Positions 13,137-19,367 of a DNA stretch of 20,716 bases are shown piece after piece. Under the pieces are notes generated by a model that searched no databases, was not told where the DNA came from, and saw nothing but the letters and a program-made list of their open reading frames with translations. The first letter of the stretch is position 1, and every line of letters begins with the position of its first letter. This DNA is from a virus: positions 1 through 20,716 of IMG/VR virus record IMGVR_UViG_3300034166_000756. One strand, 5' to 3'. Made by a program: the position numbers and the translations under genes.

Positions 13137-15095
13137 TTAAAAGTAAGTTGTGATAATTGCCATTCCTGCCCCGCCAGTGCCGCCTGCTCCTCCATTGCCA
13201 GCCTCAGACGCACCTCCTCCTCCTCCTCCTGAGCTTGGGAATCCTCCGTTTCCTCCGCTGGTCCCATCAACAGTCCTCGATGAGTTTCCTCCGCCGCCAC
13301 CAGAGCCGACAGCGAATAAACCATTTACAGCGTTTGTATTATTTTGCCCAGCCCCTCCATTTGAGGCACCGCCAGTTAAATTCAAAAGATTGCTTCGCCC
13401 GCCGTTAAGCCCTGTCGATGTCGCGTTTGAATTGTTGATGCCCCCCGCTCCGCCACCCCCGGCACCTCCCATAAAATGATTGCTATTTGCTGCCGATGGT
13501 TGCCCCACGGCCCCGTTGCCGATGTTCCCTTGACCGCCGCTATTTGCGTTCAACGACCCAAATCCTACCGCCGAAGCGGCCCCCGATCCTCCACCTCCGC
13601 TCGCCCCTCCGGTTGCAATGTAGGTTATCTCGCCAGACGCTCCGCTTCCAAAAATCGTTGCCCCGCCTAAAACCCCAGCGCCTCCGGTTACCCCACTATT
13701 TGTTGACCCACTACCCCCAAGACCCCCCGCGCCAATAGTTATGCTAATAGGCGTTTCGGGCAATAGTTGTGCAGGGATATTCGCGGACAAACATCCGCCG
13801 CCTCCGCCGCCTGCCCCGCCCGAACGATTGGTCGAAGTAACATTTTTGAATCCGCCGCCCCCTCCGCCGCCGCCAGCAAGAAGTTGAATGTTAATAACTT
13901 TGGCGCCAGTTGGTTTAGTCCAAGACCCTGTGGTAGTAAAAATTTGAATATCTGTTGTTTCTGCTTTCCCGATTAGATCCGCTGAGAGTCCGCTGATAGT
14001 TCCGATGGTTAGCGTAGAATTTACCCAAAGCGTGGTGGCCGAATTCCAAAGGATCGTTTGGTTGTTTTGTGGCGAAGTGATCAACACGTCGTGCAATTCC
14101 TCAAGCTCAAATCCGTTTTGCGGTCGGATGTAAAGTTGCCCATTCCCAGCATTCGCGCGTTCGACAACGCCGATAAAAACAATATGATCGGGCTGGGTTG
14201 GCTTTACTCGCGTAAATGCTCCAGGTGTCGTATCGAGATAAATTGAGTCGCCGGACACATAGGGAGAGCCAAGTGAAAGCCCGTCGAGAACGCCTTGCGT
14301 AATTATGAATCCGTTTTGGTTTGCGCCAATGCTTTCGGCAACAAGGCCAATAGTTTTGGACGAGCTTGAATCTGCTACGTTTGACGCCCGCTTGACGCTT
14401 GCGCGGTTGCCTGTTGCTCCGAAAAGATAAACAACCTCGCCCTTGTTGAGCGTTGTCGCCTCGGCATTGCGAACGTAGGCGACAAGCATCGATCCCATTT
14501 GTAACTGCACGTTGCCGCCTGCAAGCCCGACTTGTGGTGCGCCTTCGGTCGAGTTCCAGAACATCTTGCCGATGGCATTAGTTTCGGTTGCCGCCGTGTT
14601 GAAATTGAGCGAGTCCGCAGGAACGTCTGCCAGCATCGAGATCGTGCGCGAAGCGGAAAGATCGCCGCCGCCTGTCAGTCCTGTGCCTGCCGTGATCGCC
14701 GTGATCTTGAGAGCCTTCGCGTCAAGCGCACTTTGCAAGTCGGTCTGATTCGCTAGCGTTCCGGTGATGCTTCCCCACGTCACAGAAGACAGCTTTGCAT
14801 CGAGAACCGTTTGAAGATCGGTCTGGTTCGAGAGCGTTCCCGCGATACCTCCCCAGATCGCTGATCCACCACCACCACCGCCTGTGATCCATTCCGTGTC
14901 GTAGTCGGCATTTGTTTTCTTCGCCAACACTTGCCCTGTGAAACCGCCGGTGACAACTCCAGGGCCAACTGGACCCGCTGGCCCCTGCGAACCGGTCGGC
15001 CCCGCCTCGCCTGCAATAATTTCGGTGCGGAGAATTGGTTGATTGTTGACGTTAGGAACTTCGCGGCCCTCGTCTTCTGGAAAGAAAATGCTCAT
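13137..15095 (-). CDS. tail fibre / adhesin with collagen-like repeat and glycine-rich tip, 652 aa
   Basis: A 652-residue fibre. Residues 31-46 are a collagen-like GPT-GSQ-GPA-GPV-GPG run. Then come GGGGGG (72-77), two 26-residue copies of W-G-x-I-x-GTLxNQTDLQ (81-132), the fibre-shaft motif AGTGLTGGGDLSASRTISM (136-154), and a middle domain (about 160-340) with NKGEVVYLFGATGNRASV, GDSIYLD and IRPQNGFELEELHDV. Similar middle domains are found in receptor-binding proteins of many phages. From about 385 the sequence TTTGSWTKPTGAKVINIQLL leads into a glycine-rich domain to the end (the Gly_rich_2/adhesin type), rich in GGGG, N and S. This tip probably contacts the host surface. The ATG overlaps the connector stop (ATGA, 15092-15095). 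Its place between connector and tail terminator genes is unusual. Confidence 0.88.
   Translation of the reverse strand: MSIFFPEDEGREVPNVNNQPILRTEIIAGEAGPTGSQGPAGPVGPGVVTGGFTGQVLAKKTNADYDTEWITGGGGGGSAIWGGIAGTLSNQTDLQTVLDAKLSSVTWGSITGTLANQTDLQSALDAKALKITAITAGTGLTGGGDLSASRTISMLADVPADSLNFNTAATETNAIGKMFWNSTEGAPQVGLAGGNVQLQMGSMLVAYVRNAEATTLNKGEVVYLFGATGNRASVKRASNVADSSSSKTIGLVAESIGANQNGFIITQGVLDGLSLGSPYVSGDSIYLDTTPGAFTRVKPTQPDHIVFIGVVERANAGNGQLYIRPQNGFELEELHDVLITSPQNNQTILWNSATTLWVNSTLTIGTISGLSADLIGKAETTDIQIFTTTGSWTKPTGAKVINIQLLAGGGGGGGGFKNVTSTNRSGGAGGGGGGCLSANIPAQLLPETPISITIGAGGLGGSGSTNSGVTGGAGVLGGATIFGSGASGEITYIATGGASGGGGSGAASAVGFGSLNANSGGQGNIGNGAVGQPSAANSNHFMGGAGGGGAGGINNSNATSTGLNGGRSNLLNLTGGASNGGAGQNNTNAVNGLFAVGSGGGGGNSSRTVDGTSGGNGGFPSSGGGGGGASEAGNGGAGGTGGAGMAIITTYF
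14700..14855 (-). repeat. tandem 78-bp repeat in the fibre gene
   Basis: Two adjacent copies coding for a 26-residue unit, W-G-x-I-x-G-T-L-x-N-Q-T-D-L-Q-x-x-L-D-A-K. The DNA copies differ at many third positions, so this is an old duplication kept for protein structure rather than a recent DNA event. Such units are usually part of a trimeric fibre shaft. Confidence 0.7.
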
Positions 15096-15394
15096 TTGTT
15101 AATATCCTCAAGGCTGAAATCGACCGATACGGCGTCTTGGGAAAGCTCTGCGGATGTGACGCGGAAGCGTCTGCCACCGATAACGAGAACGTCGCCGAGA
15201 GAAATGGTTTGAACGAAAGAATCATAGACCGCCGTGATAGTCATCGATGCGGAATCCATGAATCCGCCGTCCGCCAGGCTGTTGTCGCGCCGGTATGTTG
15301 TCCGGTTCGCGAGAAAATTACGCTCGCCAAAAGTGACCGCAAGCGGCAGATCGTCCAGCATAGCGGCTAGATCGTTAGTAAATATGTCGAGCAT
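15092..15394 (-). CDS. head-tail connector / neck protein candidate, 100 aa
   Basis: A 100-residue protein: a short N-terminal helix (MLDIFTNDLAAMLDDL), then beta strands (LAVTFGERNFLANRTTY, MTITAVYDSF) and the end GDVLVIGGRRFRVTSAELS...VSVDFSLED. The last part, with GGRRFRV followed by a strand, resembles head closure proteins (lambda FII-type fold). It is the first protein of the connector group after the glycosyltransferases. The ATG at 15392-15394 is preferred; a GTG two codons upstream is possible. A small hairpin touches the start. The stop overlaps the fibre start. Confidence 0.6.
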   Translation of the reverse strand: MLDIFTNDLAAMLDDLPLAVTFGERNFLANRTTYRRDNSLADGGFMDSASMTITAVYDSFVQTISLGDVLVIGGRRFRVTSAELSQDAVSVDFSLEDINK

Positions 15395-15395
15395 T

Positions 15396-15408
15396 CCCAC
15401 AAAGTGGG
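15396..15408 (-). promoter_or_regulatory. small hairpin directly before the connector start codon
   Basis: CCCAC (15396-15400) and GTGGG (15404-15408) form a 5-bp stem with a 3-base loop, so on the minus-strand mRNA the hairpin ends one base before the ATG. It could lower initiation until ribosomes from the upstream glycosyltransferase gene (stop 8 bases earlier) open it, giving translational coupling. It is short, and could be chance. Confidence 0.35.
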
Positions 15409-15415
15409 TAATGCG

Positions 15416-16078
15416 TCAAAACTTGCGCTCTACACGTCGCTGGTTTGGATGCGTGAAATCGTGCTTCGGGCTGTCCGCGATATGAACCCAACTCTTGCGA
15501 AGTGCCGACGCAAGGATGCTCGTGCTGGTGTTGATCGTCACAACATCGTTGGCGTCCCGTATATACGCGCACATATATTCTATCGTCTCAAATTCAGCCA
15601 TGCCGTGAGCGGCCTTCCCAGCGCAAACAACAGGCCTTCCGTTAGCGATTTGATGCGCTGCTGTAATGACATCGCGAGGGTCGATCTTTTTATCCTGACT
15701 GTATCCAGTAGGAAAACAAAGAACCCATGACCTAAGTTCGGGCGGTGTCACGATGGCTGGCGAGTTTAGAACAATCTGCCTGTCGATGTCCTTGCCTTCT
15801 GGAAATAGTCCGTAAACATAGTCACTCCAACTCAGCGGACTGGCGCAAAAATGTTCGTGACGATCAGGCCAGATTTGCAAGTTGATGATGCGGTCAAATC
15901 CGCTGTGGTCGTTTTGTGGATAGATCGGCTGGCAGTAATCGACCATCGCGAAAAGGCCGTGGTAATCAGGCAGGCACTCAAAGGTGACGTTGTGTCCCTG
16001 ATCCGCGAAATGCTTCGCGATTGGCAAGCAACGTGCGATGTCTCCGAGCCTCAAATGGTAAACAATTAGGATGTTCAA
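15416..16078 (-). CDS. GT9-like (heptosyltransferase-type) glycosyltransferase, 220 aa
   Basis: The N-terminus, NILIVYHLRLGDIARCLPIAKHFADQG, matches the first strand and G-D helix of GT9 glycosyltransferases, which use the GT-B fold and transfer heptose or related sugars. The C-terminal part, DANDVVTINTSTSILASALRKSWVHI, corresponds to the family's 'ND(S/T)..HLAAAL' region. At 220 residues it is clearly shorter than typical GT9 enzymes (about 330-350), so it may be a minimal phage version or lack a subdomain. The start is TTG at 16076-16078, exactly where the family homology begins, overlapping the previous stop as TTGA. An in-frame extension to 16177 lies inside the previous gene. Confidence 0.75.
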   Translation of the reverse strand: MNILIVYHLRLGDIARCLPIAKHFADQGHNVTFECLPDYHGLFAMVDYCQPIYPQNDHSGFDRIINLQIWPDRHEHFCASPLSWSDYVYGLFPEGKDIDRQIVLNSPAIVTPPELRSWVLCFPTGYSQDKKIDPRDVITAAHQIANGRPVVCAGKAAHGMAEFETIEYMCAYIRDANDVVTINTSTSILASALRKSWVHIADSPKHDFTHPNQRRVERKF

Positions 16079-16659
16079 AAGGTGTAATATTGTTCCGCTG
16101 ATTTTCCTGCAACCCAGCCGTGGAATCCGAACGAACGATCCGGCCCCGCCGTATTTTCCTCGATGTAATGTTCCCAAGAGAACGCCGCCGCGACATCCAC
16201 CGGAGCGAATTTGACGCCGTTGCTTTTAAATTCCTTCTCCATTGTTCGGCATAGGAAGACATCGGCAGCCTCTCCCTTCCAGAGAGGCTCCGCATTCGCT
16301 GCCATCTCCAAGAATTTCATGCTCTGGAGCGTGAATCCGGTATTGCCGACGCGATGTCCGACGTTCCAGAACGCTGGCCAAGCCGCGCCGATCATGTCGT
16401 ATTCCAGCCACGAATCCTTCCACAGGCGCGGATTGGCAATGAAGCCGTCGTGAGTGCAGATGAGCGCGTGCGAGGTGTCGATATAGTCGGCAAAGCGACC
16501 TAGTTCCCAATGCATCGCCTGTTGATAGTTGCAGTCCTCTGCGATATACACAGCGTCTCCGAATCCACCCAATCCGCAAAGGTGGTTGAACAACTTTTCG
16601 CTTTGTTCGTGCCTTGGTTTCAAGCCTTCAAATACGATCAATGTGACGTCTTTATTCAT
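16075..16659 (-). CDS. DUF5672-like glycosyltransferase, 194 aa
   Basis: A 194-residue protein with the pattern of DUF5672 proteins: an N-terminal strand (VTLIVFEGLKPRHEQ), a middle HALICTHDGFIANPRLWKD, the conserved SWLEYDMIGAAWP (83-95), GNTGFTLQSMKFLE (104-118) and an end PVDVAAAFSWEHYIEEN. The family has a GT-A like fold and occurs in sugar-transfer gene clusters. The THDGF segment could hold the metal-binding acid. The final GFHGW is also common in this family. The start ATG at 16657-16659 overlaps the previous stop as ATGA, and the stop overlaps the next TTG start, so the three cassette genes are coupled. Confidence 0.8.
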   Translation of the reverse strand: MNKDVTLIVFEGLKPRHEQSEKLFNHLCGLGGFGDAVYIAEDCNYQQAMHWELGRFADYIDTSHALICTHDGFIANPRLWKDSWLEYDMIGAAWPAFWNVGHRVGNTGFTLQSMKFLEMAANAEPLWKGEAADVFLCRTMEKEFKSNGVKFAPVDVAAAFSWEHYIEENTAGPDRSFGFHGWVAGKSAEQYYTF

Positions 16660-18329
16660 TTCGGGTGGAGTTCATCGAAGATTTCTTTTGCCCTTGCATA
16701 CTCTGCCGGATCGTTGCCGCGCTGGTATGTAGCATCAAGCGGACGCTCCTCAAAAAACGGGTGATGATGAACGATGCTAATGTCACGAGCATCAACAATC
16801 GCCCCATTTTTCGCGGCACGAAAGGTGAAGTCGGTATCGCTGTAGACGTTTCGGAATCTTGGGTTGAATAGTCCATTTTCTTGAAAATATTTACACGTCA
16901 TGATCGCCATGCAAAGCAAATCGTCTTTTCTATATCCGTCCGAAATCCGAAGAACCTGTGGTTTTGAAATGTCGAGACGCTTTTCGATCATGTCGTCCCA
17001 CCCTGGCGGACATTCCCAATCGTCCGAGAGTTGTATGATGATGTCGCCGGTTGCCTTTGCTGCTCCCAAGTTCCACGCTCCGACCGAATACCCTTGGTCT
17101 TTTTGCGTAACGGATCTGAATCGCTTTAGAACCTCGGCCTTTTCGTCGTCGTGATCGACCGCAAAGATATGTTCTACGCGCTCTGGATGCGTTGCGCGGG
17201 ATAACCATAGCGTCATACATTGCACGGCCTCTACCGGCCTTCCTCGCGTTGCGTGGACGAGTGAAATCTTGGGCTTGCTTGATCCTGCCAGCGTCTCGCG
17301 CTCGATCTCTTCGGCATCTTCGTTTCGTCCGAGAAGGCGAAGCGTCCATGCGTATAGTTGATCACCCTTCCACCCATACCATTCCTTCCGGTGCGTCCAT
17401 TGCGGGAACTTAGGAGTTGGAACTGCGAGCATTTCTTCCACCACTTTTAACGCTTCTTGGTATTTTTTCTCATCAAGCAGAATGCTAGCCTCTAGTCCGT
17501 AGGCTTCGCGGCGGTTCGGCTCAAGCTCCTTGGCCTTTCGCGCTAGGTTGAGCGAGGTTTCTCCGCTCGTAATGTTGGCGCAGTTTAAAAGAATCTCGTA
17601 GCGGTTGACGCCGTCGAGATCGGTCAAGGCTAGTGCCTCCGATCCGTATTTCGCGGCGAGTTCTTTCTTGCCAGCAATAAAGTTTTCGTAATGCAAATAG
17701 AATTTAAAGTGCGAAGTCATCCGGTCTTGATGCATCAGAATCCGGCGGTTGCGCTCGCTGCTGTTTCGCGCCCCGACTGGCGGTGCATGGACAATCTCTA
17801 GGTCTCGGCGCATACAGACCGAAACGTCCTTCGTCGGTTGCGCGTTCTCATGCACAGGACGATGCCACCATGCTGTTTTGTAGCGAAAGAAACGCTCGCG
17901 TGGTGCGCGTTTGCCTTGTTCGGGAATGACGTAGTCGGTCAATATCCAATCTTGTTCCGGTGGGCATTCTTCAAGCGCGGCCAGCGTTGGCGCGACCATG
18001 TGCGGCTCAATAATGTCGTCGCAATCGGCCCACATAACCCAGCCGTCTTTCCCTGCGAGTTCGTATGCCTTGGCGAATGCTTTGTTCCGAGCCTCTCCGA
18101 AGTTGTCGAGATGCTCCCAATCTGCGACCAGCGGAGAGTTGAGATATTCGTCAACGTGGCAACCGAGTTCCCTAGCGATGTCGAGCGTTTGATCCGGTGC
18201 AAGCGATCCGATTGCGCGGACGATAACGATCTCGTCGCAGATTTGTTTGAGTGACTTAACGCATCGCTCGATGCGCGGTTCTTCGTTGCCGCAGATAAGC
18301 CCTGCGACTAGCTTCTGTTTTTGTTTCAT
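16656..18329 (-). CDS. bifunctional glycosyltransferase: GT2 domain - TPR - second GT-A domain, 557 aa
   Basis: Residues 6-215 form a GT2 domain: LVAGLICGNEEPRIERCVKSL, the EIVIVRAIGS strand, FGEARNKAFAKA, and the DxD motif D102-C-D104 within WADCDDIIEP. Residues 220-350 are helical repeats of TPR type (NLARKAKELEPNRREAYGLEA, KYQEALKVVEEML). Residues 353-557 form a second GT-A domain: ISLVHATRGRP, IFAVDHDD, QLSDDWECPPGWDD with D436/D437, and SDTDFTFRA, HHHPFF near the end. Such double enzymes can add two sugars in sequence to a protein or glycan. The ATG at 18327-18329 is preferred over a TTG at 18356. It follows the capsid terminator and has a TTGACA upstream but no clear -10. Confidence 0.9.
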   Translation of the reverse strand: MKQKQKLVAGLICGNEEPRIERCVKSLKQICDEIVIVRAIGSLAPDQTLDIARELGCHVDEYLNSPLVADWEHLDNFGEARNKAFAKAYELAGKDGWVMWADCDDIIEPHMVAPTLAALEECPPEQDWILTDYVIPEQGKRAPRERFFRYKTAWWHRPVHENAQPTKDVSVCMRRDLEIVHAPPVGARNSSERNRRILMHQDRMTSHFKFYLHYENFIAGKKELAAKYGSEALALTDLDGVNRYEILLNCANITSGETSLNLARKAKELEPNRREAYGLEASILLDEKKYQEALKVVEEMLAVPTPKFPQWTHRKEWYGWKGDQLYAWTLRLLGRNEDAEEIERETLAGSSKPKISLVHATRGRPVEAVQCMTLWLSRATHPERVEHIFAVDHDDEKAEVLKRFRSVTQKDQGYSVGAWNLGAAKATGDIIIQLSDDWECPPGWDDMIEKRLDISKPQVLRISDGYRKDDLLCMAIMTCKYFQENGLFNPRFRNVYSDTDFTFRAAKNGAIVDARDISIVHHHPFFEERPLDATYQRGNDPAEYARAKEIFDELHPK

Positions 18330-18361
18330 GTTTACAAGTGATGTATATGTCAACAAAACAA

Positions 18362-18389
18362 AAAAGCCACCCCTTTCGAGGTGGCTTTT
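18362..18389 (-). terminator. intrinsic terminator after the major capsid gene
   Basis: AAAAGCCACC (18362-18371) and GGTGGCTTTT (18380-18389) form a perfect 10-bp stem with an 8-base loop. On the minus strand the stem ends in a long T-rich run (GGTGGCTTTTTTGTTTTG), as in an intrinsic terminator. It lies 24 bases after the capsid stop. On the plus strand the T-run is only four bases, so it works mainly for minus-strand transcription. It should make the glycosyltransferase genes less expressed than the capsid, or give them their own start. Confidence 0.9.
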
Positions 18390-18413: not shown

Positions 18414-19367
18414 TTAGGCGAATCCCGTGGTGATGCGGATAATGCTGGAACCGTCGATAACTTTCTCAGCCGAGTTCTGACGAACGCGGAGAACATTAGC
18501 GCGGCGAGCCTCGTCACGGTAGGTTTCGGAGACGAAAGGCACGGGACTATCAGCGGCCCATACGATCGTGCGACCGAATCCACCACCGGAGAAATCTCCG
18601 CCGGAGGTTGTGGCGAGTGCGAGGTAGGTGTTGCTCCAGATGAATCCACCGGAATAGGCTTGGCCTTTTGCGGCGTTGTTCTTTGGTGCGCGGCCTACAA
18701 GAACGCGGTCGACTCCGACAGCGGCGGCAACTTCGCCTTCGCTCAAGAGACGGCTTTGATCCGAAGGAACGATGCCGAAGAACTGGTTCTGCACTTTAGC
18801 GGAACGGCGGATGCGCTCGAACAAAGGCATGGACATAATCAAGGTGTTTGGAAGAACGCCATATTTGGCGAGTTCCAACTTGGCCGCTGCCACGTCACCG
18901 GGAACGTCGAAGCTGGTGATGTTCGCTTCTGTATAGGCTGCTGTTGCGCTGATCGCGGTCAGACCGTTAGCGGCGAATGCTGCGGTAGCAACACGAGCCT
19001 CGTGGCTGATTTGGATTTGGCGAAGCAACATCGAAGCGATGTTCACTTCGGTGTCGAAAAAGCGGTCGAGGTCGCGGCGGTTAGAATCAGGGAGAACCTC
19101 TTCGAGACCGTATTCGATCGCGTCGAACGAGTCGCTCGTGAACCGGCGGCTTGTGCGTGGGTATCCAGCACCAGCGGCGATTTTCAGAACGTCGTCGTTG
19201 AGAGTTTCAGAATCACCGATGTTCAATTTCAGATACGCGCCGGACTTGACGTCCGAGCTGTAAACTGGCATGACCTCGGTTCCGATGAACAAGTTGTTTT
19301 TGTTCGACAGACCTTCGTAGACGGCCTGCGCGATATCGGCGCGAATTGTTGTGTAGGAGAGTGCCAT
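18414..19367 (-). CDS. major capsid protein (HK97-like fold), 317 aa
   Basis: A 317-residue protein in the position after protease and decoration genes. Features agree with phage capsid proteins: no cysteine, A/G/S-rich, an N-terminal helical arm (SYTTIRADIAQAVYEGLSN), a charged middle (PRTSRRFTSDSFDAIEYGLEEVLPDSNRRDLDRFFDTE), the 'PNTLIMSMPLFERIRRS' helix (172-188) and a late strand region (VLVGRAPKN, FIWSNTYLALATTSG). PNTLIMS..LFE is typical of HK97-fold capsids, where a strand leads into a helix. It forms the icosahedral shell. It starts at ATG 19365-19367 and is followed by a strong terminator, as expected for the most abundant protein. The large plus-strand frame across it is a shadow. 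Confidence 0.9.
   Translation of the reverse strand: MALSYTTIRADIAQAVYEGLSNKNNLFIGTEVMPVYSSDVKSGAYLKLNIGDSETLNDDVLKIAAGAGYPRTSRRFTSDSFDAIEYGLEEVLPDSNRRDLDRFFDTEVNIASMLLRQIQISHEARVATAAFAANGLTAISATAAYTEANITSFDVPGDVAAAKLELAKYGVLPNTLIMSMPLFERIRRSAKVQNQFFGIVPSDQSRLLSEGEVAAAVGVDRVLVGRAPKNNAAKGQAYSGGFIWSNTYLALATTSGGDFSGGGFGRTIVWAADSPVPFVSETYRDEARRANVLRVRQNSAEKVIDGSSIIRITTGFA

Follow-up and report, generated by a model that had tools for sequence, protein, structure and literature searches.

A glycosyltransferase cassette in a fixed slot between capsid and connector genes of an uncultured phage clade probably serves virion-protein glycosylation

Our findings suggest that three overlapping genes for glycosyltransferase-like proteins, which lie between the capsid and connector genes of an uncultured virus, probably serve stepwise glycosylation of a virion protein by a first enzyme that stays fixed and finishing enzymes that can be swapped, with catalysis and acceptor being what we infer from the genes. 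The first-pass annotation had proposed an oligosaccharide on a virion protein and this remains the best-supported reading, given head-module position, slot content in relatives, lead-enzyme layout and start motif, with capsid, decoration, connector and fibre proteins as candidate acceptors.

The window - a 20.7-kb uncultured virus record, analysed over all of its 20,716 nucleotides - has its main genes on the minus strand, where a protease/scaffold-like ORF (from 20606) is followed by genes for a small decoration-like protein, the capsid, the three cassette proteins, a connector-like protein and the tail fibre. The major capsid protein gene (18414..19367; phrog_1005 major head protein, E 1.4e-27) has a terminator-like hairpin (GCCACC...GGTGGC) plus T run on its 3' side (18360..18385). 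Downstream, a lead enzyme of 557 aa with GT2-TPR-GT2 layout (16656..18329) is joined by an ATGA overlap to a DUF5672 protein of 194 aa (16075..16659), a probable glycosyltransferase, and this by a TTGA overlap to a short-form protein of 220 aa with a TTG start and a predicted GT9 (GT-B) glycosyltransferase fold (15416..16078). The downstream border of the slot is a head-tail connector-like gene (15092..15400) whose match to PF05354 (Phage_attach, 0.0034) stays below the curated cut-off. ORFs, overlaps and Pfam or fold matches agree with the earlier description of three overlapping genes that follow a terminated capsid gene and precede a connector gene.

To see this arrangement across a clade, IMG/VR was scanned with the three cassette proteins plus the capsid, which gave 124 contigs distinct by capsid sequence. 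Cassette genes were recognised by their homology to known ones, and on this count the lead enzyme comes next after the capsid in 121/121 contigs that extend past the capsid, while the remaining 3/124 end within 116 bases of it; not counted are two different extra ORFs between capsid terminator and GT2 (L004:4996-5749, L015:3925-4675, L323:9030-9587). Phage glycosyltransferases associated with virion genes are what virion glycosylation leads one to look for, and the order capsid-cassette-connector is found in 79 complete slots. These hold four sets after the lead enzyme: DUF5672 plus GT9-like, as in the window (set A, 48/79); a SAM methyltransferase plus GT9-like (set B, 4/79); a GT2-methyltransferase fusion plus a Gly_transf_sug/GT32-like protein (set C, 26/79); and, in a single contig (set D, 1/79), an FkbM methyltransferase, another GT2-like protein and a GT9-like one plus an ORF that resembles GT25 by eye only. 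So the trio, when sought at the same place in other phages, recurs in the same order in 48 distinct contigs, which together with low dN/dS argues that the order is not due to chance. That every relative sequenced in this region has the cassette in its head module, and that relatives have other glycan enzymes in this slot, both favour a virion acceptor.

How finishing sets differ is best seen in L171 (set C) and L276 (set B), whose capsid DNA is 96% identical: the two align at 93% up to a point 6 nt short of the lead gene's end, have nothing in common over 1.86 kb and resume alignment at 89% from a point 19 nt ahead of the connector. Based on these breakpoints, the finishing set has been exchanged as one block while the structural module around it remained conserved, which again favours virion glycosylation. 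Capsid and lead-enzyme pairwise distances correlate (r = 0.84 for 48 contigs, kinship ignored).

Slot content varies in further ways. Half of the set-A relatives (24/48) carry an insert of at least 222 bp between GT2 and DUF5672 which is absent from the window; its small ORF (43-230 aa; L039:3077-3752, L024:6280-6765, L025:2301-2873, L003:7053-7419 and others) starts MSDTPETD and has LERERDEARE-anchored modules in highly variable number, a variation that looks like module shuffling. Between lead enzyme and methyltransferase, one contig has an ORF (L340:4988-5524) with a sulfotransferase-like start (FPRSGHHWL); this reading and that of the GT25-like ORF (L269) are both motif-based, with no match to either in Pfam. 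Outside the clade, profile searches of bacterial genome contigs with GT2 and capsid alignments returned no relatives, while among 50,697 annotated phages there were none for the capsid or GT9-like protein and only distant matches for GT2 and DUF5672. A human-gut GT2 match (L357) was left out, being without phage structural genes.

Among set-A relatives, dN/dS is 0.050 for the lead enzyme, 0.037 for DUF5672 and 0.042 for the GT9-like protein compared to 0.070 for the capsid (full-length matches only, some dS values near saturation), and every scored copy is intact. The cassette genes are constrained to the capsid's degree, which speaks for a role in the virion. By contrast, a passenger (moron) that a permissive site tolerates and that has no role in the virion would be missing in some relatives, so that a lead enzyme present in 121/121 and strongly constrained makes this option hardly credible, even though the terminator ahead of the cassette and the extra ORFs between capsid and GT2 in L004, L015 and L323 are what one might expect of it.

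The terminator also counts against a virion acceptor, since it parts the capsid gene from the cassette; by eye, hairpin and T run are retained, with varying stem sequence, in 40 distinct capsid-cassette spacers of relatives. What the cassette has in common with virion genes is its start signal. In five large relatives, no hexamer is more over-represented than TTGACA at 13-27 nt ahead of ORF starts (24 observed vs 0.76 expected), and it is present (by eye) in 33/40 distinct capsid-cassette spacers. It stands ahead of the protease gene, a tail tube-like gene, further late genes and the cassette, as well as of a nested start inside the protease ORF. In the window, the box precedes the ATG of late genes by 13-18 nt (18353-18348, 20625-20620 and 20179-20174 on the minus strand), the first of these (18348..18353) belonging to the lead enzyme at a distance of 18 nt; in relative G001 it is found at 2802, 11554, 18121 and 34851. 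A box common to the cassette and to late genes such as those for protease and tail tube favours virion glycosylation. As to its nature, an ordinary sigma-70 promoter was dismissed by eye, since a -10 box is absent at 17 nt downstream and the spacing to the ATG varies too little. Shine-Dalgarno-like sites are few in these phages, and the box may possibly be an unusual translation or late-transcription signal. One TTGACA-preceded internal ATG (~20159, inside ORF 20606-19752) opens a 135-aa product beginning MEDATIEIEPKEDE, which by analogy would fit a scaffold protein nested within the protease ORF. Such nesting is found in lambda C/Nu3.

The lead enzyme, the only part of the cassette common to all sets, has a first GT2 domain at ~aa 6-185 (motifs WADCDD and HEN), a TPR-like region at ~aa 216-349 whose TPR signals are weak and a second GT2 domain at ~aa 354-540 (motif SDDWE). 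It passes Pfam PF00535 (Glycos_transf_2) with 56.2 bits vs a cut-off of 23.3 in two stretches (5.2e-15), these two domains are the only GT2-family matches in nine relatives, and the DxD-type motifs DCD and SDD are invariant among ten diverse homologues. Its closest solved sequences in the PDB are GmaR (2.3e-4) and SunS (0.014), both acting on proteins, which favours a protein acceptor here; that this similarity is weak and mainly confined to the first domain counts against it, and the NCBIfam equivalog cut-off for the SunS family (TIGR04195) is failed at 17.6 bits vs 350. GmaR transfers GlcNAc onto flagellin, its TPR being proposed to recognise the latter (PMC9638930), and FlmG combines TPR domain and transferase in one protein that acts on flagellins (PMC7591256). 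Judged by sequence, then, the lead enzyme appears to have the layout of protein glycosyltransferases: it is similar to Listeria GmaR in its GT2 domain, the order GT then TPR and the protein acceptor proposed for it, and to Bacillus SunS in GT2 domain and acceptor type, but a second GT2 domain sets it apart from both, and an antirepressor domain is not seen.

Since glycosylation of DNA is a usual role of phage glycosyltransferases (PMC7029224), the enzymes might instead act on the phage's own genome, as do the T4 beta- and alpha-glucosyltransferases. This seems very improbable to us: nine relatives (several of them fragments) lack a thymidylate-synthase-like enzyme for a hydroxymethylated base, the lead enzyme has no T4-type match among PDB sequences at E 0.1, and neither methyltransferase-bearing sets nor a TPR suggest DNA. 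In addition, a Mom-family gene (PF25680, 2.8e-39) in G001 (30115-30792, equal to L214:10115-10792) is absent from nine other records.

The two finishing enzymes of the window differ in how well they can be placed. The DUF5672 protein passes PF18922 (57.6 bits vs 24.4, E 1.6e-15), but with a low-confidence predicted structure (pLDDT 47). For the third gene it is the other way round: no Pfam or NCBIfam GT9 profile matches, whereas its AlphaFold model (pLDDT 91.9) is found by Foldseek to resemble GT9 heptosyltransferases over the whole length (E 2e-6 to 7e-6) and, across all 220 residues, scores Z 16.1 with WaaF, 15.5 with WaaC and 14 with TibC. A GT9 of Veillonella is also among the matches at Z 14-16, the next unrelated GT-B rows follow at Z 9.7, and RLGD is invariant. 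Given a GT9 fold over the whole chain but no sequence-profile match, we call the protein GT9-like: the model assigns it the fold, which is less than proven membership of GT9. Of the three different enzyme folds proposed for the cassette, two can be told apart, in that GT2 belongs to a GT-A family and the GT9-like protein to GT-B, whereas a third fold finds no support in a DUF5672 model of pLDDT 47. The phage protein shares its fold with TibC and WaaC/WaaF across 220 residues, yet is ~100 residues shorter at 14-16% identity; TibC is an iron-containing dodecamer and the comparison here is one of fold only. In G001, a gene adjoining the fibre (L213:10058-10912) has passenger-associated-transport repeats (PATR, 2.3e-16). 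These repeats are common in Verrucomicrobiota, and the gene is a possible hint at such a host; a link between a TibC-like GT9 and this fibre-side gene was dropped as the window's fibre is without PATR in Pfam.

That the GT9-like model fits TibC no better than it fits the LPS heptosyltransferases counts against a virion acceptor and leads to the main rival, in which the enzymes alter sugars on the host surface, in the LPS core or O-chain, at a late stage of infection and thereby block superinfection or loss of progeny on cell debris. WaaC and WaaF do build the LPS core, pelagimyophage transferases have been interpreted as O-chain modifiers (PMC7029224) and varied finishing sets would suit varied surfaces. 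Gtr-type serotype conversion, however, goes with a membrane-spanning transferase or flippase in a temperate phage, a pattern that the cassette does not show: its tested enzymes have no membrane-length hydrophobic segment (highest 19-residue hydropathy at or below 1.5) and no integrase (PF00589) is found in nine relatives, some of them fragments, both of which favour a virion acceptor. Adding a cassette that is always in the head module, a start box common to virion genes and a TPR lead enzyme resembling protein transferases, we consider modification of the host surface unlikely, albeit not negligibly so.

Placement in other phages bears on the same question. Podovirus ctKR88 encodes a distant homologue of the lead enzyme with GT2, TPR and a GT1-type domain one ORF past its capsid gene, with further transferases and methyltransferases downstream, and the ctKR88 protein led to a homologue in siphovirus ctf1B273 that lies between terminase and portal. 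A 67-kb contig (L110) has a DUF5672 relative at 65% downstream of a terminase-like ORF. This repeated placement among head genes of different phages, and in particular the ctKR88 and ctf1B273 homologues, argue for a virion acceptor. Homologous cassettes confined to host surface-sugar islands, which would have told against such an acceptor, were not what we found, yet one distant DUF5672 relative does lie inside a nucleotide-sugar island of cyanophage S-B05 and counts on the other side. The head-gene placement also matters for the idea that the enzymes modify a host protein or other host target during infection for takeover or counter-defence. While PHROGs matching the lead enzyme in its first (phrog_13126) and last part (phrog_14945) belong to the category of moron, auxiliary metabolic gene and host takeover, neither head-gene placement in several phages nor block exchange of finishing enzymes suggests a fixed host target, and PADLOC gave no match, so to our minds a host target is improbable.

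Returning to virion glycosylation, one may envisage a late glycan-assembly cassette of a tailed phage of ~37 kb without detected integrase. Two relatives are apparently complete at about this size: G001, whose first 3.6 kb are repeated with small differences, and G003 with a 127-bp end repeat. The GT2-TPR-GT2 enzyme would act in the cytosol, its TPR docking the acceptor - capsid, decoration, connector or fibre protein - with one GT2 domain adding the first sugar and the other probably the second. DUF5672 and GT9-like enzymes may then lengthen the chain using nucleotide sugars of the host, which would have to supply them, as an NTP_transferase for nucleotide sugars (pyrophosphorylase) is not found in relatives, several of them fragments. 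With finishing enzymes replaced as a block by other transferases or methyltransferases, phages would differ from one another in their glycan much as serotypes do, and particles might gain in stability, adsorption or concealment. A bolder proposal, which we put forward tentatively as possible rather than probable, is a virion serotype locus: a clade-wide particle glycan whose first linkage is fixed by the invariant GT-TPR-GT enzyme and whose outer part changes as blocks of glycosyl- and methyltransferases, with a sulfotransferase perhaps among them, are exchanged in the capsid-connector slot. There are few systems in which glycosylation of phage particles is documented. If our reading is true, a glycoprotein coat is a core trait of a widespread phage clade and varies by cassette exchange, with bearing on adsorption, persistence in water and recognition by other organisms, and the clade would supply cytosolic protein glycosyltransferases whose choice of acceptor is directly testable with neighbouring virion proteins.

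Phage-encoded virion glycosylation as such is already known. In mycobacteriophages Che8 and Rita, phage-encoded glycosyltransferases have been linked to glycans of the major capsid protein (Freeman et al. 2023, cited in PMC11256854), and the window resembles them in encoding its own transferases, here for a putative glycan. Maravista, a related phage, is described as having glycosylation genes near the 3' end of its genome rather than in a fixed slot between capsid and connector, and the mycobacteriophages differ from the window's clade, where an invariant GT2-TPR-GT2 enzyme is combined with exchangeable finishing sets. Sugar islands of pelagimyophages and cyanophages are likewise phage-borne glycan genes, one with the distant DUF5672 relative, but they are hypervariable or devoted to sugar synthesis, whereas the slot described here is compact, constant and in the head module, with no nucleotide-sugar genes found. 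We found no description of such an arrangement in the open-licence literature. What is new, then, is a fixed slot between capsid and connector, a constant GT-TPR-GT lead enzyme and clade-wide block exchange of the enzymes that follow it.
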